DNA of 7,139 nt from Desulfobacteraceae bacterium. Lineage in GTDB: Bacteria; Desulfobacterota; Desulfobacteria; Desulfobacterales; Desulfobacteraceae. Where the stretch lies: assembly GCA_011390435.1 (NCBI GenBank), contig JAABSK010000138.1, positions 1 to 7,139 of the forward strand, given 5' to 3'. The notes below the pieces were generated by a model that was given only the letters and a program-made list of their open reading frames with translations, was not told the origin of the DNA and ran no database searches. Below are positions 1 to 7,139 of the stretch, in pieces (positions within the stretch are counted from its first letter, which is position 1; the number at the start of each line of letters is the position of its first letter). The position numbers and the translations under genes were made by a program.

Positions 1-47
1 GGTTCGTTCATGGGCAAGACAGTCCATACAGGTGGTGAATTTCAAAT
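1..47 (-). pseudogene. Possible displaced 3' end of the deacetylase gene
   Basis: Read in the deacetylase frame, the sequence from 47 downwards encodes LKFTTCMDCLAHERT and stays open to the window edge, whereas the intact gene ends KFTTCMDYLAHA and stops. The displaced piece may be the original gene end, separated from the rest by the rpn unit. An ATG at 11 (ATGAACGAACC) could alternatively be the start of the next EPS gene, overlapping the old gene end. The window stops too soon to decide. Confidence 0.4.
9..47 (-). repeat. Direct repeat copy A, downstream of rpn
   Basis: This 39-base segment matches 1182-1220 at 37 of 39 positions in the same orientation; the differences are at 20 and 22. 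The longest exact run is 25 bases (23-47). It lies 27 bases past the rpn stop and reproduces the 3' end of the deacetylase gene. The period between copies is 1173 bases. Confidence 0.93.
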
Positions 48-74
48 TAAAAGTTTGTGGCGGCATTACGAGAT

Positions 75-332
75 TTATTGTTCTTTGTCTGACAGCAGGT
101 GCAGCGGGATTTCGACGGGTTCGTTATTCAGTATCTGTCTGACCAGATCAACTTCGAGATCAATGATCTGTGCGATCATTTCTTCAGTCAGTCCTTTTTT
201 ACCGGCATTGCGAACCAATGCGATCATAGCTTCCTGCCTGCCTTCCTGCCTGCCTTTCTGCATGCCTTTCTGCATGCCTTCCTGCCTGCCTTTCTGCATG
301 CCTTCCTGTCTGAGTTTTTCTGCGGTTGTCAT
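75..332 (-). CDS. Internal in-frame product RpnS-like (85 residues), putative intragenic antitoxin
   Basis: Methionine 244 of the Rpn protein is preceded by a near-ideal Shine-Dalgarno sequence, so an 85-residue C-terminal protein can be made separately from the same frame. It begins MTTAEKLRQE, contains the tandem four-residue repeats (about residues 9-35), then the helical segment GKKGLTEEMIAQIIDLEVD and an acidic tail ending SDKEQ. It lacks the whole nuclease domain. In published E. coli Rpn systems the separately translated C-terminal domain blocks the toxicity of the full-length protein, and its dimer interface carries four-residue repeats of variable number. The architecture here matches that description. 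Translation and antitoxin activity are inferred, not shown. Confidence 0.68.
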   Translation of the reverse strand: MTTAEKLRQEGMQKGRQEGMQKGMQKGRQEGRQEAMIALVRNAGKKGLTEEMIAQIIDLEVDLVRQILNNEPVEIPLHLLSDKEQ

Positions 333-1061
333 GGCAATATCCCCTCCTTTATCTGAAATACTGGCAACTGATTTGACAAGTCGGGCTGTTTCAATCTCAG
401 TTGCCTGTAATATGTAGTTTATCACAGCTTCGAGGAATTTCAATCCCTGTGTTTCCTGAAAATAGGCCCGGCCAATCTCTAAAAACTGGGCCAGATGATG
501 TTCCAGTTTCTGCTGGTCAAATATGTTTTTCATGATCAACAGCCCTATCCGCAGAGAGACTGCCTTGAAAATGCTCGTTTTTATGGATTCGTTGGAGTAC
601 ACAGACAGATCCACAAAAATGAATTCAAAATCAGGGACATACGGTGTTATAGCATCCGGCAGATTTTTGAACCGGGTGATCAGGGTACCCGGGTTCCAGG
701 GTTTCCAGCCGTGGTAGAGTACAATGGGAATAACTGGTAATCTGGATTGTTTTTGTTTGATGCTGTTTTCCCAAAGGTTGCTCATGTAACGGTGCAGCTG
801 GAAGGGGAGATTCTTGTCCGGAGCACTTTTGTGTTCAAATAACAGGGCTATTTTGATCTGTGTTCCGGAAAACCGGCAGGTATAAACAGTGTCGGAAAAA
901 TTTTCCGCCAAAGCCGTATCCACATGAGACCCCTTTTCAATGACAAGTGTCTCAAAATCCATCTGCTCTACCAATTCGGACGGAAGGATATGCCGGACAA
1001 AATCAGTGGCATTGTCCCGAATTGAAAATGTTGCCTTGAAAAAAAGATCGTGGTGGTTCAT
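75..1061 (-). CDS. Rpn family recombination-promoting nuclease (PD-(D/E)XK, putative transposase_31)
   Basis: This 328-residue protein has an N-terminal PD-(D/E)XK nuclease domain and a variable C-terminal tail. It opens NHHDLFFKATFS, typical of the family. Asp57 in NFSDTVY and Glu76-x-Lys78 in ALLFEHKS are the likely catalytic residues. FQLHRYM (87-93) and PVIPIVLYHGWKPW (109-122) are further family hallmarks. Residues about 252-278 are four-residue EGMQKG/RQEG repeats, followed by a helical segment KKGLTEEMIAQIIDLEVDLV (289-308). E. coli Rpn proteins cleave DNA and stimulate RecA-independent recombination; later work describes them as anti-phage toxins inhibited by an internally translated C-terminal product. 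The ATG at 1061 is chosen because the family signature begins there; the in-frame TTG at 1085 adds eight atypical residues. It follows the deacetylase on the same strand, looks more A+T-rich by eye, and is flanked by direct repeats, suggesting acquisition. Confidence 0.92.
   Translation of the reverse strand: MNHHDLFFKATFSIRDNATDFVRHILPSELVEQMDFETLVIEKGSHVDTALAENFSDTVYTCRFSGTQIKIALLFEHKSAPDKNLPFQLHRYMSNLWENSIKQKQSRLPVIPIVLYHGWKPWNPGTLITRFKNLPDAITPYVPDFEFIFVDLSVYSNESIKTSIFKAVSLRIGLLIMKNIFDQQKLEHHLAQFLEIGRAYFQETQGLKFLEAVINYILQATEIETARLVKSVASISDKGGDIAMTTAEKLRQEGMQKGRQEGMQKGMQKGRQEGRQEAMIALVRNAGKKGLTEEMIAQIIDLEVDLVRQILNNEPVEIPLHLLSDKEQ
230..313 (-). repeat. Seven 12-base tandem units encoding four-residue repeats in rpn
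   Basis: Seven consecutive 12-base units: on the plus strand three are CTTCCTGCCTGC (230, 242, 278), three are CTTTCTGCATGC (254, 266, 290), and the last at 302 is degenerate (CTTCCTGTCTGA). In the rpn frame they encode RQEG or MQKG blocks. Because the unit is a multiple of three, gain or loss changes repeat number without breaking the frame, in both the full-length and the internal product. Confidence 0.95.
341..350 (-). promoter_or_regulatory. Strong internal ribosome binding site within rpn
   Basis: On the minus strand AAAGGAGGGG lies inside the rpn coding sequence, with GGAGG 10 bases ahead of the ATG at 332. It is the best Shine-Dalgarno match I saw in the window, better than that of the full-length rpn start, where GGAG is 14 bases away. 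It falls at the junction between the nuclease region and the C-terminal repeats. Confidence 0.72.
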
Positions 1062-1109
1062 ATACTTGTCATTGACTCCGATCAATGGGGCTGAGGCTGG
1101 TTTATTTTT

Positions 1110-1184
1110 TCAAATAACTTCAAAGCCGACACGCTCAAAATGTTCCCAATCTGCTACAATTTCTTTCATTTCCCGCTCAAGCAT
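1110..1184 (-). CDS. Possible 24-residue ORF overlapping the deacetylase stop; may be a gene remnant
   Basis: An ATG at 1184, within the repeat, overlaps the deacetylase stop in the form ATGCTTGA and opens a 24-codon frame ending in TGA at 1110. The product starts MLEREMKEIV and contains DWEHFERVGFEVI. It is charged, has no membrane segment, and I do not recognise it. A shorter reading starts at the ATG at 1169. It could be a translationally coupled small peptide, the head or tail of a gene interrupted by the rpn insertion, or chance. Only the overlap geometry supports expression. Confidence 0.2.
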   Translation of the reverse strand: MLEREMKEIVADWEHFERVGFEVI

Positions 1185-2055
1185 GGGCAAGATAATCCAT
1201 ACAGGTGGTGAATTTCAAATGCTGAAAACCGGTCAGCAGGGCCTGCAGCTTTTTGTGAGTACGATGCAGGTTGATATAATGCCTGAACCTGAACCCGGCC
1301 GGTGCCTGTTTCACCCGCGGCTGATCCGGATCAAACTCCCAGGGGTGTGAATAAAAGATAAAGGCATTGTCCTGGTTCAATACGCGCTGCATGCCCATCT
1401 TGAACAAAAAAAAGGGCAGCAGCCTGAAATAGCCGCCGCCGCCAAGGGGAAACACGTTTTCGCCAATGGTCAGATTGCTCAATGGCAGTTCAAAAAAATC
1501 ATGGCTGATCCTGAAAGCTGCCCCGGTTTTCTGACATCCGGAAAGGTCAATCCGTCCGTACCGGCCATGCATTGCAAAAGAGTTATAACTGGAATCGTAT
1601 AAATGGCCGGTCTGGCGGATAATCTCCAGAATGTCGTTGTTTACGGCAAAACTGGGAGCGCGATACCCGCAGACCTGAGCGCCGATGATATCTTCAAGCA
1701 GGGATCTGCCGGTTTTCAGATCGTTTTGGATCTCATCTGACGACTGGGTGGTGCACAAATGGTGCTGATCACCGTGGGACGCCACTTCATGGCCGCGGCT
1801 GTGAATTTCGCGAACCAGGCCGGGCAGCTGTCTTGCAATCCATCCCAGAACAAAAAACGTTGCTTTGGGCTGAAAGGAAACACTGTCCAGCAGATCCAGG
1901 ATGGTGTGCATGTTCTTTTCCACCCGGAGCTCCCTGTCCTTCCAGGTGGAATAGGGAATGCAGGATTTAAAATTTTCTACCTGGAACCAGTCTTCAACAT
2001 CAAATGTCAGCAGGATGGTTTGTTTCCCGTCCAATGCCGTGGTATTCAAATCCAT
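1177..2055 (-). CDS. Polysaccharide deacetylase, XrtA/PEP-CTERM locus type with DUF3473-like C-terminus
   Basis: This 292-residue NodB-fold carbohydrate esterase should remove acetyl groups from N-acetylated sugars of the EPS. Motifs are in order: TFDVEDW (17-23, the Asp/Glu/Asp form of motif 1), ATFFVLGW (65-72), the metal site SHGDQHH (93-99, His94 and His98), GYRAPSF (120-126, Arg122), YDSSY (143-147) and FYSHPWEFDP (234-243, His237). The DFFELPLSNL and GGGGYFRLLP stretches and the DQPR segment are typical of TIGR03006 deacetylases. No signal peptide is visible. The ATG at 2055 lies inside the dehydrogenase gene. The overlap cannot be trimmed away, because the codon of Asp19 straddles the dehydrogenase stop. 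The last codons lie in a direct repeat whose second copy flanks the rpn gene, so the present C-terminal end (YLAHA) may be a product of insertion. Confidence 0.94.
   Translation of the reverse strand: MDLNTTALDGKQTILLTFDVEDWFQVENFKSCIPYSTWKDRELRVEKNMHTILDLLDSVSFQPKATFFVLGWIARQLPGLVREIHSRGHEVASHGDQHHLCTTQSSDEIQNDLKTGRSLLEDIIGAQVCGYRAPSFAVNNDILEIIRQTGHLYDSSYNSFAMHGRYGRIDLSGCQKTGAAFRISHDFFELPLSNLTIGENVFPLGGGGYFRLLPFFLFKMGMQRVLNQDNAFIFYSHPWEFDPDQPRVKQAPAGFRFRHYINLHRTHKKLQALLTGFQHLKFTTCMDYLAHA
1182..1220 (-). repeat. Direct repeat copy B, forming the 3' end of the deacetylase gene
   Basis: This partner of 9-47 encodes deacetylase residues from about LKFTTC to the penultimate codons (YLAH) and ends at the ATG that overlaps the stop. 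Together the two copies bracket the rpn gene and its 120-base leader. I found no inverted repeats at the inner edges. Confidence 0.93.
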
Positions 2056-3355
2056 ATTCTTTCAGTTCCAGGGGGTCATACTGGTTTCTGCCGTCAAATA
2101 CAACTCTGCGGTGCATCTTTTCAGCCATTTGTCGAAAATCCGGCTGGCGGAAGGTTTTCCACTCGGTCACCAGGATCAGGGCATCTGCATTTTCAACCGG
2201 CGTATACTGGTTATTGCTGAACTGCAGCCGGCCGTCGGCAAACCAGTCCGTTGGGAACTCTTTTTTGGCCTGGTTCATGGCAACCGGGTCAAACGCATTC
2301 ACACGGGCACCGGCAGCGAGCAGTTCTTCGATCAGCACACGGGAAGATGCCTCCCGCATATCGTCGGTTCCCGGCTTAAAAGAGAGCCCCCACACACAAA
2401 AGGTGTGAGTGGAAAGGTCTTTGCCAAAGCGGGCCTTGACCTTTGCAGCCAGTACCTGTTTTTGTGCGGCATTGCGTTTTTCCACTGCGCTGAGCAGCTC
2501 CGGTTCGATGCCGGATTGCCGGCTGGTGCGGATCAGGGCCTTGACGTCTTTGGGAAAGCAGGAACCGCCATATCCGCATCCCGGATAGATAAAAGAATAT
2601 CCGATCCTGTTGTCCGAACCAATGCCTTTTCTGACATTTTCCACATCAACCCCGAGGCGCTCACAGATCACCGCAATTTCATTCATAAAGGAGATTTTCG
2701 TGGCCAGCATGGAATTGGCGGCATATTTGGTCATTTCCGCGTCCCGGACATTCATGATGATCAGCTTGTCCCGGTTTCTGGAAAACGGCGCGTAGAGTCT
2801 GCGCATGATATTGGCAGCCCGCTCGGATTCCACACCCACGATAATCCTGTCCGGTTTTAAAAAATCGTTGACTGCAGCGCCTTCCTTTAAAAACTCCGGG
2901 TTGGAGACCACGTCGAATTCAACATCCATGCCCCGTTTGTCCAGCTCTTCCTGAATAGCGGCCTTGACCTTGTCTGCCGTACCCACCGGCACGGTGGATT
3001 TGTCCACGATCACAGAATATTCATTGATGTTCCGGCCGATCTGCCTGGCCACCTGCAGCACATACCGGAGGTCTGCAGACCCGTCTTCTCCCGGCGGGGT
3101 GCCAACGGCGATGAAAAAAATCGTGGACTGTCCGGCAACCGCTGCCAGTGATGTTGAAAAATGCAGCCCCCCATCTTTGAAATTCTGAATGACCAGGTTT
3201 TCAAGGCCGGGTTCATAAATGGGCAGAATCCCGTTTTTCAACCCCTCGATTTTTGCTTCATCCACATCCACACAGGTGACGTTGCTGCCCATTTCAGAAA
3301 AGCAGGCCCCTGTCACCAGACCGACATAACCGGTTCCGATAATCGTAAGATTCAT
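2000..3355 (-). CDS. ugd: UDP-glucose 6-dehydrogenase
   Basis: This 451-residue cytoplasmic enzyme oxidises UDP-glucose to UDP-glucuronate with two NAD+, supplying an acidic sugar for EPS. It has the N-terminal NAD-binding motif GTGYVG (7-12) with the acidic strand end VDVDEAKI (29-36). Next come VGTPPGEDGSADL (84-96), STVPVGT (120-126), NPEFLKEG (152-159), and Lys210 and Asn214 in TKYAANS. The catalytic cysteine is Cys266 in GYGGSCFPKDV, and the UDP-binding domain carries FKPGTDDMREA (326-336). All expected active-site residues are present and the length is normal for the family. The ATG at 3355 has AAGGA upstream. The related UDP-ManNAc dehydrogenases are an alternative; the motif pattern and small N-terminal region favour UDP-glucose. 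The 3' end overlaps the deacetylase by 56 bases in another frame. Confidence 0.96.
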   Translation of the reverse strand: MNLTIIGTGYVGLVTGACFSEMGSNVTCVDVDEAKIEGLKNGILPIYEPGLENLVIQNFKDGGLHFSTSLAAVAGQSTIFFIAVGTPPGEDGSADLRYVLQVARQIGRNINEYSVIVDKSTVPVGTADKVKAAIQEELDKRGMDVEFDVVSNPEFLKEGAAVNDFLKPDRIIVGVESERAANIMRRLYAPFSRNRDKLIIMNVRDAEMTKYAANSMLATKISFMNEIAVICERLGVDVENVRKGIGSDNRIGYSFIYPGCGYGGSCFPKDVKALIRTSRQSGIEPELLSAVEKRNAAQKQVLAAKVKARFGKDLSTHTFCVWGLSFKPGTDDMREASSRVLIEELLAAGARVNAFDPVAMNQAKKEFPTDWFADGRLQFSNNQYTPVENADALILVTEWKTFRQPDFRQMAEKMHRRVVFDGRNQYDPLELKEYGFEYHGIGRETNHPADI

Positions 3356-3382
3356 GTTCAGCTTTATCCTTTGAAACGCATA

Positions 3383-4708
3383 TTAAAAGTCAAAAAGTCT
3401 GTCTTCCAGTGTTGTCCTGGGTTTGTCCGCGGAGAATTTCACAGGAGACGCTGGTGTCATCCGGATGGTGATCATCCCGATATTTTCCTGATAATCCTGA
3501 CGCAGCGCAGAATCTGTATTAAAGTCGATAAATGAGTAAGACAGGTTCATGGTCAGCCATTTCAGAGGTGCCCATGAAAGCCCGCACCCCAGGGCCATGG
3601 TATTGTCCTTGCGGTTGACACCGGGTTCGTCAAACTGGCTGATCTGATAGGATGCATTCAGATCACCGGTCAGGCGGCGGGTGAGCTGACGCTGCAACAG
3701 CGCCCCTGCCTGGTAGTAGATTTCAAAACCAAGGCCGGCGGCATCATCACTGCTGGGCGTGTATCCGCTGGCACCGGTTATGGAAAGATGCGTTCTGCGG
3801 TCGATCTCAAAATCCTTGTACGCATCCAGGTCCAGAAACAGGTCGGTTGAATCAGATGCATTTGCCTGGTCCCATTCCTGAAACAGGACACCTATCCCCA
3901 GGCGGATACCGGAATCTTCTGTCGGCTGCCAGTCAAATCCCACAGAGGGGTTGTAGATGGTGTGGTCTCCGGAGTTTTGTTCGGTGTCGGTGTGGGCATA
4001 GGCAACATAGGCATCCAGATGGCGGCTCATGCTTTTGAGCAGCCGGACACTGCCGGACCAGGTTTTGGGATCATTGTTTGAAAAGTCATAATCTGTTTTT
4101 TCGTATGACCCGTCCAGATTGATGCCGAACCGGGGCGAAAACCAGTAGGCCAGCGACACAGACGGTTGATGTTCTGTGTGTTCATTGGCGTTGACATTAT
4201 CGTATGCATCAAAGGAATACCGGTAGTTTACCCCGACAGAATCCTTTGGGCCGAAATTGTGAACCATCCCCACGGACGCGGTATTGGTGTCATGTTTTTC
4301 AAACGTGTTGGTGGTGACGGTTCGATCCAGGCTCCGGGTGAACTGCTCGGAAAAAAAGAACCGTGTCTGGCGGCTGGTCCAGGTCTGGCCGTTCAACTGA
4401 ACCGTATGGTTCCAGGAATCATTTTCATCGCGCTGAAGATGATCAATGTAGCTGGGATGATAATTGAAAAACAGCTGATTTTTCCTGTCCATGGCGCCGA
4501 ATGAGAACCCGGCATTGTAAATGGTGGTAAATTCATCTTTTGTGTTGCTGCGGGTCTGGTGATAATTGTCTGTGTACTTTTCCGTAATCGAAAGCGACGG
4601 AACAAACTGGGGAACCATTTTGGAAAACGCTGATGCCGCCGGAAACAGCACAAGGCCTGCAGCCACGATACGGGTGATCAATACACCGAGCCGATTGGAT
4701 AATCTCAT
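3383..4708 (-). CDS. Outer-membrane beta-barrel protein of EPS locus (XrtA-associated TIGR03016-like)
   Basis: This protein of about 441 residues carries a signal peptide (hydrophobic run VLITRIVAAGLVLFPAASA, likely cleaved after ASA) and then a long series of alternating-hydrophobicity strands. Examples are FFFSEQFTRSL, SVGVNYRYSFDAYD and LTMNLSYSFIDFN, as expected for an outer-membrane barrel. The chain ends in LFDF; a terminal Phe is the usual barrel-assembly signal. The early segment PSLSITEKYTDNY recalls the opening of barrel proteins found in XrtA/PEP-CTERM EPS loci. No enzymatic motif is visible. It starts about 40 bases after the export protein and is the natural outer-membrane partner for that short protein, but this role is inferred from position. 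The ATG at 4717 is also in frame; 4708 is preferred because AAGGA is better spaced from it. Confidence 0.85.
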   Translation of the reverse strand: MRLSNRLGVLITRIVAAGLVLFPAASAFSKMVPQFVPSLSITEKYTDNYHQTRSNTKDEFTTIYNAGFSFGAMDRKNQLFFNYHPSYIDHLQRDENDSWNHTVQLNGQTWTSRQTRFFFSEQFTRSLDRTVTTNTFEKHDTNTASVGMVHNFGPKDSVGVNYRYSFDAYDNVNANEHTEHQPSVSLAYWFSPRFGINLDGSYEKTDYDFSNNDPKTWSGSVRLLKSMSRHLDAYVAYAHTDTEQNSGDHTIYNPSVGFDWQPTEDSGIRLGIGVLFQEWDQANASDSTDLFLDLDAYKDFEIDRRTHLSITGASGYTPSSDDAAGLGFEIYYQAGALLQRQLTRRLTGDLNASYQISQFDEPGVNRKDNTMALGCGLSWAPLKWLTMNLSYSFIDFNTDSALRQDYQENIGMITIRMTPASPVKFSADKPRTTLEDRLFDF

Positions 4709-4716
4709 GGGTTTCA

Positions 4717-4721
4717 TCCTT
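4717..4721 (-). promoter_or_regulatory. Ribosome binding site for the outer-membrane barrel gene
   Basis: Minus-strand AAGGA lies 8 bases before the ATG at 4708 but directly abuts and overlaps the ATG at 4717. The spacing favours the downstream start and removes only three residues from the longer reading. Confidence 0.55.
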
Positions 4722-4745
4722 GTAGAATTAACGGGTTACACAGGT

Positions 4746-5324
4746 CTACGGCACAATGATGGTGTCATCTGCCTGCAATGGAATATCCTTGCTGAAATCA
4801 CCGTTCAGGATATCGTTGTAGCTGATGGTGATGTTCATCTCTTTTCCCTCTCCCCTGCGGATCAGGATAATCTTGTTTTTTGAGGCCCATTCCGTGAATC
4901 CGCCGGAAAGGGCGAACGCCTGCATGACGGTGAGGTTTTTGATGATGGGGTATTCACCGGTGCGCATCACCTCACCCAGAATGTAAAATTTCTGGCTGAC
5001 AGGATTGGCCAGTGTCACTGTTACATTGGGCGCTTCAACATATTCCGTGAGTTTTTTTTCAATCACTGCTTTCAGGTCCATGGTGGTCCGGCCCTGCGCC
5101 ACAATATCATCCAGCAGGGGAAAAGTGATTTTGCCGTCACTGCGGACCATTGCGTCATTAATGGTCAGATCCGGCTCCTGCCAGGTGGTGATGCGAAGAA
5201 TGTCCCCGACACCGATTCTGTAGTCGCCTTTCCCGTCCTGTGCCAGACCGGCTGCAGGCATGCCAAGACAGCACACCAGACATACCACTGCCATTGTTTT
5301 TGTTATCTGCCTTAAAAAATACAT
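4746..5324 (-). CDS. Periplasmic polysaccharide export protein, short Wza/OPX type
   Basis: This 192-residue exported protein belongs to the Wza/OPX family, which forms the periplasmic part of the EPS exit channel. A signal peptide (hydrophobic run, likely cleaved after AGLA, before QDGKGDYRIG) precedes the polysaccharide export domain (YRIGVGDILRI through NVTVTL). One SLBB domain follows (KFYILGEVMRTGEYP, then LTVMQAFALSGGFTEWA). The Cys-rich hydrophobic stretch has no clear lipobox, so it does not look like a lipoprotein. It is about half the length of Wza and ends shortly after the SLBB domain, without the C-terminal helix that crosses the outer membrane in Wza. The ATG at 5324 is preferred because GGAG and AAGGGG lie just upstream. 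The in-frame TTG at 5354 would add ten residues ahead of the signal peptide. It resembles the export proteins of XrtA loci (TIGR03027-like). Confidence 0.93.
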   Translation of the reverse strand: MYFLRQITKTMAVVCLVCCLGMPAAGLAQDGKGDYRIGVGDILRITTWQEPDLTINDAMVRSDGKITFPLLDDIVAQGRTTMDLKAVIEKKLTEYVEAPNVTVTLANPVSQKFYILGEVMRTGEYPIIKNLTVMQAFALSGGFTEWASKNKIILIRRGEGKEMNITISYNDILNGDFSKDIPLQADDTIIVP

Positions 5325-5326
5325 AG

Positions 5327-5338
5327 CTCCGCCCCTTT
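5327..5338 (-). promoter_or_regulatory. Ribosome binding site deciding the export protein start
   Basis: Read on the minus strand, AAAGGGGCGGAG lies two bases before the ATG at 5324. The purine-rich AAGGGG element sits 7 bases from that ATG. It falls inside the longer in-frame extension from TTG 5354, so it argues for initiation at 5324. Confidence 0.65.
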
Positions 5339-5396
5339 GATTACATTGCTCCAAATAAACCAGGCAGCGCGATTGTGTCAGTCTGACAAAAAAAGA

Positions 5397-6791
5397 CTAC
5401 CTGGCGCCCTTGCCAAACAATACGGTTTTGATGGTGCGTAAGATGATCACGATATCCATGGTAATGGACAGGTTCTTGATGTAAAACAGGTCATAATTGA
5501 GTTTTTCCACTGCATCTTCAACCGTTGCCCCGTAATCGTAAGATACCTGGGCCCATCCGGTCAGGCCGGGTTTGACCTTGAACCGTTCCGCATAATAGGG
5601 AATCTGTTTTTCCAGTTCATCTGTGAAGTGCTTGCGCTCCGGCCGGGGGCCGACCATGCTCATTTTTCCACACAGCACATCCCACAGCTGGGGCAGTTCG
5701 TCAATCCTGAATTTCCGGATCACCTTTCCCACACGGGTGATGCGCTGATCATCAGCCTGGGCCCACATGGGTCCGGTTGCCTTTTCCGCATCCTGAACCA
5801 TGGAACGGAACTTGTGCATCATGTATTCCTGGCCGTGCTCACCCACCCGGTCCTGGGAGAAAAACACCGGCCCGCGTGAATCAAGCTTGATGAGGATGGC
5901 CGTCAGCAGCAGCAGCGGGAATAACACAATCAGCATCAGGAAGGAAAGAACAATATCTTCCAGCCGTTTGACAATGGTTTTCATCCGTGATTTCTTAAAC
6001 CCTTCGGAAAAAATCAGCCAGGACGGATTGATTTTGGTCACCAGCACCTTGCCGGTGAGCATTTCGTAAAACGTGCTGCCTTCCAGAACTTCCAGACCGC
6101 GGGTCCGGCACTTGAGCAGCTCCTGGGTGGGGAAATTGCCCCGTTTTTCCTTGAGGGCCACAATCACCTTGTGGACATTGGTGACCATGGCAATAGCGCA
6201 GCAATTTTCTTTATCGTATTCAATCGGGATCGATCCGATACGGGCAGGATCAATTTTCTCATTCTCGGTATCCGGGATCAGGCGCACCACGGTATACCCG
6301 CAGTCAATGGTGTTGTTGATCTTGTCGATAATGTCAAACGCCAGGGGGGTGGACCCCAGAATCATGACGTTCTCGTTGAAATACCCTTTGTTGAGAATCC
6401 AGATATAGACCATCCGCCACCCGATGATAAACACAATCAGAAACACCACACTTAAAATAAAGACTTTCTGATCAATGATGGCTGCCGGAAACAGAAAATA
6501 GATCACTGCCAGTATGATTGAAGTGGCGCCAAGGGACTGCAGCAGGCGGATCCCCAGCTCCGGAATGGACGAGGCAATCTCAAAATCATACAAATCATTG
6601 TAATACAGGCAGATCTGGCACAAAAAAGTGATCAGAAAAATTTTCAAAAATAAAAACAGATCCAGGACCGCAACGTCAAATTTTGATATCAGGGCGGCTG
6701 CCAGCAGAACAGAGCTGAAAATCACCAGGCCTTCAAAGATAAAAAAAAGAATGTTCCGTATGGGAAAGTACTGTTTTAAGAGTCTAAGCAT
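5397..6791 (-). CDS. Undecaprenyl-phosphate sugar-1-phosphate transferase (initiating EPS glycosyltransferase, EpsB/WbaP-like)
   Basis: This 464-residue inner-membrane protein should transfer the first sugar phosphate from a UDP-sugar to undecaprenyl phosphate and so start the EPS repeat unit. The N-terminal third holds several hydrophobic helices (about 13-35, 40-63, 85-105, 110-132). A Rossmann-like region follows, beginning NVMILGSTPLA (141-151). The catalytic bacterial sugar transferase domain fills the C-terminus: KRLED (275-279) before a membrane helix (280-301), FFSQDRVGxxG (310-320), HKFRSM (326-331), the key DELPQLWDVLCGKMSMVGPRPE (364-385, Asp364/Glu365) and KPGLTGWAQV (407-416). 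Length and layout match the long transferases of XrtA/PEP-CTERM loci (TIGR03013-like). The ATG overlaps the kinase stop, giving ATGCTTAG, which supports this start. The sugar specificity cannot be read from the sequence. Confidence 0.95.
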   Translation of the reverse strand: MLRLLKQYFPIRNILFFIFEGLVIFSSVLLAAALISKFDVAVLDLFLFLKIFLITFLCQICLYYNDLYDFEIASSIPELGIRLLQSLGATSIILAVIYFLFPAAIIDQKVFILSVVFLIVFIIGWRMVYIWILNKGYFNENVMILGSTPLAFDIIDKINNTIDCGYTVVRLIPDTENEKIDPARIGSIPIEYDKENCCAIAMVTNVHKVIVALKEKRGNFPTQELLKCRTRGLEVLEGSTFYEMLTGKVLVTKINPSWLIFSEGFKKSRMKTIVKRLEDIVLSFLMLIVLFPLLLLTAILIKLDSRGPVFFSQDRVGEHGQEYMMHKFRSMVQDAEKATGPMWAQADDQRITRVGKVIRKFRIDELPQLWDVLCGKMSMVGPRPERKHFTDELEKQIPYYAERFKVKPGLTGWAQVSYDYGATVEDAVEKLNYDLFYIKNLSITMDIVIILRTIKTVLFGKGAR

Positions 6792-7139
6792 TTTTCACGC
6801 CGTATCCGTATTTACCGTATCCGTACTTGCTGTAGCCGTAGCCGATGGGTTTTTTCGCACAATTGTACACAGCACCAATGACTTTTTCCTCGCCATATGC
6901 CTCCACAAGGTCCATGACATCTTTTTTGTGGGTTTTGCCCTGGCGGATCACAATGATGATCCCATCCACCTGCCGGGAGATGGCATTGGTTTCCGATGTA
7001 AGATATGGCGGGGGCGTATCAATGATGATATACCGATTGGCGTATCGTGCCCGGACCTCCTGAATCAGGTTTTTCATCAGATCGGAAGACAGCAGCTCTG
7101 ACGGGTTCGGGGGAATCCTGCCTGCCGGAAGCAGTGTCA
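6784..7139 (-). CDS. Tyrosine autokinase (CpsD/CapB-type BY-kinase), C-terminal part, cut by window edge
   Basis: This is the last 117 residues of a bacterial tyrosine kinase that controls polysaccharide chain assembly at the inner membrane. The frame is open to the window edge, so the ATG at 7077 is internal and not the real start. The fragment begins with the BY-kinase motif LPAGxxPPNPSELL (fragment residues 3-16). A Walker B-like strand YIIIDTPP (36-43, Asp40) follows, then a strand with GIIIVIRQGKT and a Tyr/Gly-rich tail with six tyrosines in 15 residues. Tyrosine clusters at the C-terminus are the autophosphorylation sites in this family. The P-loop and any chain-length domain lie upstream, outside the window. 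Its stop overlaps the sugar transferase start by 8 bases, which suggests translational coupling. The XrtA-associated kinase subfamily (TIGR03018-like) is the best guess from context. Confidence 0.93.
   Translation of the reverse strand, partial: TLLPAGRIPPNPSELLSSDLMKNLIQEVRARYANRYIIIDTPPPYLTSETNAISRQVDGIIIVIRQGKTHKKDVMDLVEAYGEEKVIGAVYNCAKKPIGYGYSKYGYGKYGYGVKNA

Follow-up and report, generated by a model that had tools for sequence, protein, structure and literature searches.

The 7,139-nucleotide stretch of Desulfobacteraceae bacterium DNA analyzed here (contig JAABSK010000138.1, positions 1 to 7,139; "the window" below) carries near one end, on the minus strand, an rpn gene that probably encodes a toxin and its antitoxin in a single reading frame, the antitoxin being the separately started tail of the nuclease. 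The elements on which this reading depends are the following.

75..1061, minus strand: rpn (RpnL-like), PD-(D/E)XK nuclease gene; intact frame of 328 amino acids (aa), ATG start at 1061.
474..1058, minus strand: catalytic Transposase_31 region, residues 2-196, from the Pfam scan and alignment.
341..350, minus strand: internal Shine-Dalgarno (SD) sequence AAAGGAGGGG, with an 8-nt spacer to ATG 332.
330..332, minus strand: internal start codon ATG, Met244 of the full protein, in frame with the rpn ATG at 1061.
75..332, minus strand: RpnS-like 85-aa tail, a predicted antitoxin, on the basis of its open frame, conserved start and short database proteins.
230..312, minus strand: 12-nt tandem repeats (Tandem Repeats Finder, 6.9 copies), giving four-residue units in tail helix 1.
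75..224, minus strand: post-repeat module of ~48 aa ending in ILNNEPVEIPLHLL, two short helices, weakly helix-turn-helix (HTH)-like; the part common to dissimilar Rpn-like proteins.

The full-length product matches the Pfam family Transposase_31 (PF04754) with an expectation value (E) of 1.3e-40 (139.6 bits against a cut-off of 21) and NCBIfam TIGR01784 at 1.9e-26; the RpnA model NF007361 matches it at 6.1e-21, under the equivalog cut-off of that model. By these profile matches, the window gene is a member of the Rpn family (YhgA-like, COG5464/PF04754). Residues H4, D5, K9, D57, E76, H77, K78, Q88 and Y92, among others, are invariant across 48 aligned sequences. In the published work on RpnA, activity requires D11, D63 and E82 and is lost in the Q84K mutant (PMC5350276). 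Judging by motif order, we take D5, D57, E76 and K78 as the probable counterparts of RpnA D11, D63, E82 and Q84, which would give the window protein the residues of a PD-(D/E)XK nuclease, with K78 in the place taken as Gln84 of RpnA. Lysine is the usual residue at this position in the PD-(D/E)XK superfamily. The predicted model of the full-length protein (predicted local distance difference test score, 90.7) consists of the nuclease half, a single helix at 237-288 and two short helices. Its nuclease half resembles the EndoMS, Shedu and BspD6I nucleases with modest Z-scores of 5.0-6.7, a level flagged as common. A sequence search of the full-length protein against solved structures gave no match at E up to 1, and Foldseek with the full-length model gave none below E 0.001, the RpnA chain 7TH0 being absent among the matches listed.

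The frame from ATG 332 runs open to the stop codon at 77-75 and encodes 85 residues, bearing out the original prediction that an SD sequence (350-341) followed by an in-frame ATG at residue 244 lies within the nuclease gene. That prediction placed the ATG exactly at the border between catalytic region and repeat-bearing tail; this holds roughly, the domain covering residues 2-196, the predicted long tail helix starting at 237 and the repeats lying at nucleotides 230-312. An in-frame internal SD and start codon stand between nuclease domain and repeats, one of the sequence features of the RpnL/RpnS type. SD energies were computed as duplexes with a generic anti-SD sequence rather than the organism's own; on this scale ATG 332 scores -12.1 kcal/mol, the strongest value among the 20 in-frame ATG, GTG and TTG codons and one reached by only two of the 281 ATGs on both strands of the window, ATG 332 included. 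The main ATG at 1061 scores -6.1, with long spacing, so that the internal site is the stronger, as had been claimed. A scan of positions 1-1300 found three promoter sites versus 2.2 expected, which is no evidence for an internal promoter, and no terminator-like site.

The stronger evidence comes from relatives, which were taken from fetched loci and sorted into four classes, A (the window type), B, C and D. Classes A and D are Transposase_31 proteins, and class C has a weak PDDEXK_2 match (2.3e-4, below the cut-off). Class B has no nuclease family in Pfam, TIGR01784 matching its tail only, and would count as a nuclease only by analogy. After redundancy removal, which kept 67 of 77 genes, a Met was found at the homologous column in 64 of the 67 (class A, 23/26; B, 11/11; C, 6/6; D, 24/24), with the three Met-less genes counted as misses. 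An SD of -6 or stronger precedes all 64 homologous Mets, as against 56 of the 428 Mets found elsewhere inside these genes; in 62 of the 64, the SD also exceeds in strength the average for synonymous recodings (Wilcoxon 8e-12, relatedness ignored). The synonymous tests, like the permutation test described below, treat relatives as independent; agreement among the four classes serves as the safeguard. The alignment of homologues suggested earlier as a check therefore came out in favor of the prediction, the internal SD and ATG being kept across all four classes despite different amino acids. The internal SD also beats the SD of the main ATG in every one of the 38 genes, among the 64, that have an assignable ATG start; five class A genes with GTG or TTG candidates only were left out. 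On these alignments, the internal SD/ATG is not a chance occurrence, and the support for this comes mainly from the relatives, not from the window SD alone. One of the loci left out of the main-start comparison, L005, has a TTG start that scores -9.3, compared with -10.7 for its internal site. At positions 2960-3010 of this locus, the sole start candidate of the class A rpn gene is this TTG, directly after AAGGAGACGGCAAA, which resembles a class B internal SD; the arrangement is possibly a recombination joint.

The tail also occurs on its own. A protein search with the 85-aa tail found 121 short proteins. Among the best 120 of these, 59 have the window-type ending, and they start at the class A-type Met (20), the class B-type Met (7), the class D-type Met (2) or elsewhere (30). 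One of them, P0123 (69 aa), is the window tail apart from a repeat region 16 residues shorter; more generally, tail length differs between relatives by four-residue steps, so that the tail has the variable repeat number, early in its sequence, that characterizes RpnS. At locus L009, a stop codon lies 14 codons upstream of the free-tail Met, and the SD AAGGAG is retained. At L105, a class A gene with a break near its own start is followed by a second tail, whose SD is strong (-12.2). Separate downstream tail copies are also found in E. coli (rpnC and rpnE; PMC10327210). The helix make-up of the tail is the same as that of RpnAS (7TH0), and a profile of tails aligned to 7TH0 from residue 1 of that chain (E 0.022, ninth of 21 matches). 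In a Pfam scan at E up to 1, the tail had no match to PF14261 (DUF4351), only Yae1_N, below its cut-off. PADLOC returned for the window a single weak tail match, to a putative invertase (4e-4). We also observed that the post-repeat part (75-224) resembles, with modest scores, the HTH end of serine recombinases and of DeoR.

We read the locus, with a probability of about 0.83, as an rpn gene that encodes toxin and antitoxin in one frame, of the RpnL/RpnS gene-within-gene type. Conservation of the SD and ATG among homologues and the strength of the SD both support the earlier proposal of an architecture like that of E. coli Rpn. Ribosomes starting at ATG 1061, with its weak SD, would produce RpnL, a PD-(D/E)XK DNA endonuclease, and those starting at ATG 332, with its strong SD, would produce an excess of RpnS, the 85-aa tail. 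By way of the long helix that bears the repeats, RpnS would bind the same tail in RpnL and hold the nuclease inactive; release of RpnS under infection or stress would then free the nuclease. The intact gene, the conserved catalytic residues, the conserved internal start that is stronger than the main ATG, the free tails and the four-residue length steps are directly supported by the data. Separate translation of the tail, inhibition through dimers, toxicity and phage defense would follow by analogy with the published work on E. coli and C. difficile. At the sequence level, then, family membership is good, and the predicted mode of working is clear.

Several observations weigh against this reading. 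In the window itself, the SD does not differ significantly from synonymous recodings (p=0.12), and its energy depends on the generic anti-SD; no defense island surrounds rpn within the 7.1 kb, the neighbor being an XrtA cluster. Among relatives, three distant ones lack the homologous Met, two class A members (L003 and L113) have an SD weaker than the synonymous mean, and the synonymous test reaches p<0.05 in just 11 of the 64 genes taken singly. Regarding the tail, Foldseek with the tail model gave no match below E 0.001, with 7TH0 absent among the best 50 structural matches listed, and the weak profile match to 7TH0 ranks below designed helical proteins and resolvases. Finally, at L106 a free tail follows a stop codon and has an SD weakened to -4.7, and the free tails in the database may be decayed or cut genes instead of working antitoxins.

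Three other explanations were considered. First, the internal product may be made but act chiefly as an extra subunit, or as a DNA-binding regulator that shapes or represses rpn. The resemblance of the tail profile and models to resolvases and DeoR-type HTH proteins, modest throughout, fits such a role, and DNA binding is common among antitoxins, so that both roles may coexist. As the main function, however, it seems unlikely, given that tails are also separately encoded in the same lineage and that RpnAS and RpnBS counter their own long proteins in the published work (PMC10327210).

Second, the SD-like run could be a by-product of a conserved K-G-G peptide, with a single protein made. In class A the KGG does recur, and synonymous recoding already yields a mean of -8.76, compared with -10.85 observed; the small number of genes that are significant singly points the same way. 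But the other classes form their SD from different peptides, such as HKETAM and EKEKNM, and with different spacing, which suggests that the nucleotide signal rather than the peptide is conserved. Moreover, nearly all genes (the 62 of 64 above) exceed the synonymous mean, and database proteins start at the homologous Met. Codon choice also argues against a by-product: the 74 Gly codons at the SD in classes A and D are GGA (44), GGG (21) and GGT (9), never GGC, and GGC is the commonest Gly codon in the genes of these classes (327/1060). We consider this explanation very improbable.

Third, and least credible of all, the gene could be mainly a mobile element (a putative transposase) with an incidental tail start, as direct repeats around many rpn genes, of 39 bp in the window, might suggest, but neither the sequence nor the length of these repeats (about 25-210 bp aligned) is constant across loci, the rpn ends in the window have no inverted repeat of at least 14 nt, the shortest length looked for, and the published analysis reports no evidence for autonomous transposition (PMC10327210).

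Direct repeats often flank the rpn genes of the window and its relatives. The features concerned in the window are these.

9..47, no strand: 39-bp direct repeat, copy downstream of rpn, 37/39 identical to the other copy.
1182..1220, no strand: 39-bp direct repeat, copy upstream of rpn, inside the 3' end of the deacetylase gene; from the repeat search.
1177..2055, minus strand: XrtA-system polysaccharide deacetylase, the gene upstream of rpn; TIGR03006, 288.3 bits versus a cut-off of 276.2.

Within flanks of up to 700 bp, direct repeats of at least 35 bits occur at 13 of 31 rpn genes and inverted repeats at 0/31, versus direct repeats at 0/31 deacetylase controls. Within flanks of up to 600 bp (L147, which has no flank, left out), window-type genes and nearer relatives have direct repeats in 10/20 and inverted in 1/20; a Pfam-drawn rpn set has six direct in 26 and one inverted, three of its positives overlapping the first set and one being a tandem array; and Fic control genes have direct repeats in 3/27 and inverted in none. 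In a same-locus comparison, 11 of 22 rpn-like genes lie between direct repeats (inverted repeats, one of 22), as do four of 20 genes near rpn and one of 27 more distant genes. The idea that Rpn itself makes the repeats, as a target-site duplication of fixed size, was set aside, as Fic genes show some and the lengths vary. Terminal inverted repeats (of 14 nt or more at the rpn ends) and a target duplication of fixed length, which would define an insertion sequence or transposon, were not found, and the published analysis describes rpn genes as being without identifiable target-site duplications (PMC10327210). We read the repeats as footprints of duplication or recombination at insertion; because Fic controls also have them and the lengths vary, they could be a general duplication footprint of accessory genes, although rpn genes are enriched. 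At another locus (L117 2213-5008, genome G040), the XrtA deacetylase gene again precedes an rpn gene, here 53% identical, and is separated from it by two small genes, of which the first looks nucleotidyltransferase-like by eye; a 60-bp, 78% direct repeat flanks this rpn and carries the start of the following gene.

The pattern of most value to specialists is the sharing of tails between dissimilar Rpn-like proteins. The N-terminal halves of the classes show no significant mutual alignment (E 5.6 for B-C, 0.96 for A-C and 0.005 for A-B). In genome G018, adjacent class B and C genes (L100 872-2934) agree at 181 of 187 nt in the stretch that runs from the last repeat to beyond the stop; inspection by eye suggests a frameshift early in the class C copy, which may for this reason be inactive. 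In G060 (L104), two class C genes stand in an array with a class A rpn and a free tail of 84 aa, all with nearly the same post-repeat tail and with differing repeat numbers, and in both G001 and G066 a class A and a class B gene carry a near-identical post-repeat tail. Across these four genomes, tails are 93-100% identical in five cross-class pairs, and the shared stretch starts within the 12-nt repeats. Other cross-class tails are not shared (A-C in G003, 60%; A-D in G005, 72%; A-B in G029, the genome of L105, 40%). Over the eight same-genome pairs, mean cross-class tail identity is 0.82, versus 0.59 when permuted, a value reached in 0 of 5000 permutations; the test covered 27 tails with class-assigned genes, unclassed tails being left out. 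In G018 and G060 the contigs concerned measure 4.0 and 5.2 Mb; in G001 and G066 the contigs that carry the class B copy measure 3.4 and 4.2 kb. We tentatively suggest, at somewhat below even odds, that the antitoxin tail of Desulfobacterales is an exchangeable cassette: recombination in the repeats would swap 3' ends within a genome, each class keeping its own SD and ATG 5' of the repeats, and the single tail type of a genome could serve as a common antitoxin pool in which the number of repeats would decide the binding partners. No account of such exchange was found in the open-licence literature searched, a scope that excludes supplements and many journals. If tails do swap through the repeats, the origin of new toxin-antitoxin specificities becomes directly testable.

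Beyond rpn, the stretch 1177-7137 is an XrtA/PEP-CTERM exopolysaccharide cluster (deacetylase, UDP-glucose-type dehydrogenase, outer-membrane protein, export protein and glycosyltransferase), with a partial ATPase-like protein also seen by eye. Close relatives of the gene lie in Desulfobacteraceae-type genomes, which fits the distant, probably anaerobic, Gram-negative lineage guessed earlier from the letters. Of 86 genomes of the family, 19 have the window tail type. In a draw of 389 genomes from the order, 17 had a match at E 1e-60 or better; a draw of 395 from the phylum had none, an empty answer that says little. Viral contigs yielded seven distant relatives (28-40%). A plasmid DNA search with window positions 1-1250 gave no match; with the tail as protein query, 606 plasmid records matched, almost none of them at 60% identity or more.

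The analysis adds sulfate-reducer-type bacteria to the published range of the intragenic antitoxin arrangement and tests the arrangement quantitatively over four classes. Since four Rpn-like classes keep a nucleotide-level internal start stronger than the main one, this property provides a simple genome-mining rule for hidden antitoxins.

Among known systems, the closest are the E. coli Rpn proteins. All five rpn genes of E. coli, and one of C. difficile, are reported to have internal starts (Zhong et al. 2023, PMC10327210). E. coli RpnS blocks growth inhibition and SOS induction by RpnL and, for RpnA, cleavage; the specificity of RpnC is set by repeat number, and RpnP2 protects against some T-even-type phages (PMC10327210). 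Like RpnA, RpnB and RpnP2, the window gene has a YhgA-like PD-(D/E)XK half, an internal SD and ATG in frame ahead of the repeats, repeats of four residues in the first tail helix and a short three-helix tail; separate downstream tail copies likewise occur among its relatives. Unlike the E. coli genes, the window gene belongs to a Desulfobacterales-type lineage, its tail sequence is different and ends in IPLHLL, it follows an XrtA deacetylase gene with a 39-bp flanking repeat, and it is known from sequence alone; unlike RpnA in particular, it has Lys at the position of the presumed Gln84. The C. difficile rpn, for which the cited text tests only the expression of the small protein, in E. coli (PMC10327210), likewise places an internal start in a phylum distant from E. 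coli, although C. difficile is Gram-positive. The separately encoded RpnS proteins (E. coli ypaA, which is rpnES, and some DUF4351 proteins, PF14261) resemble the tails found alone, beside or away from the parent gene, at L009, at L105 and among database proteins; in contrast to the DUF4351-annotated ones, the window tail has no PF14261 match. Finally, type I-D Cas10d/Cas11d offers the same economy of a single gene that gives a full protein and an internal-start product, but its small product serves as a required subunit, not as an inhibitor (PMC10327210), unlike the role we propose for the tail in the window.
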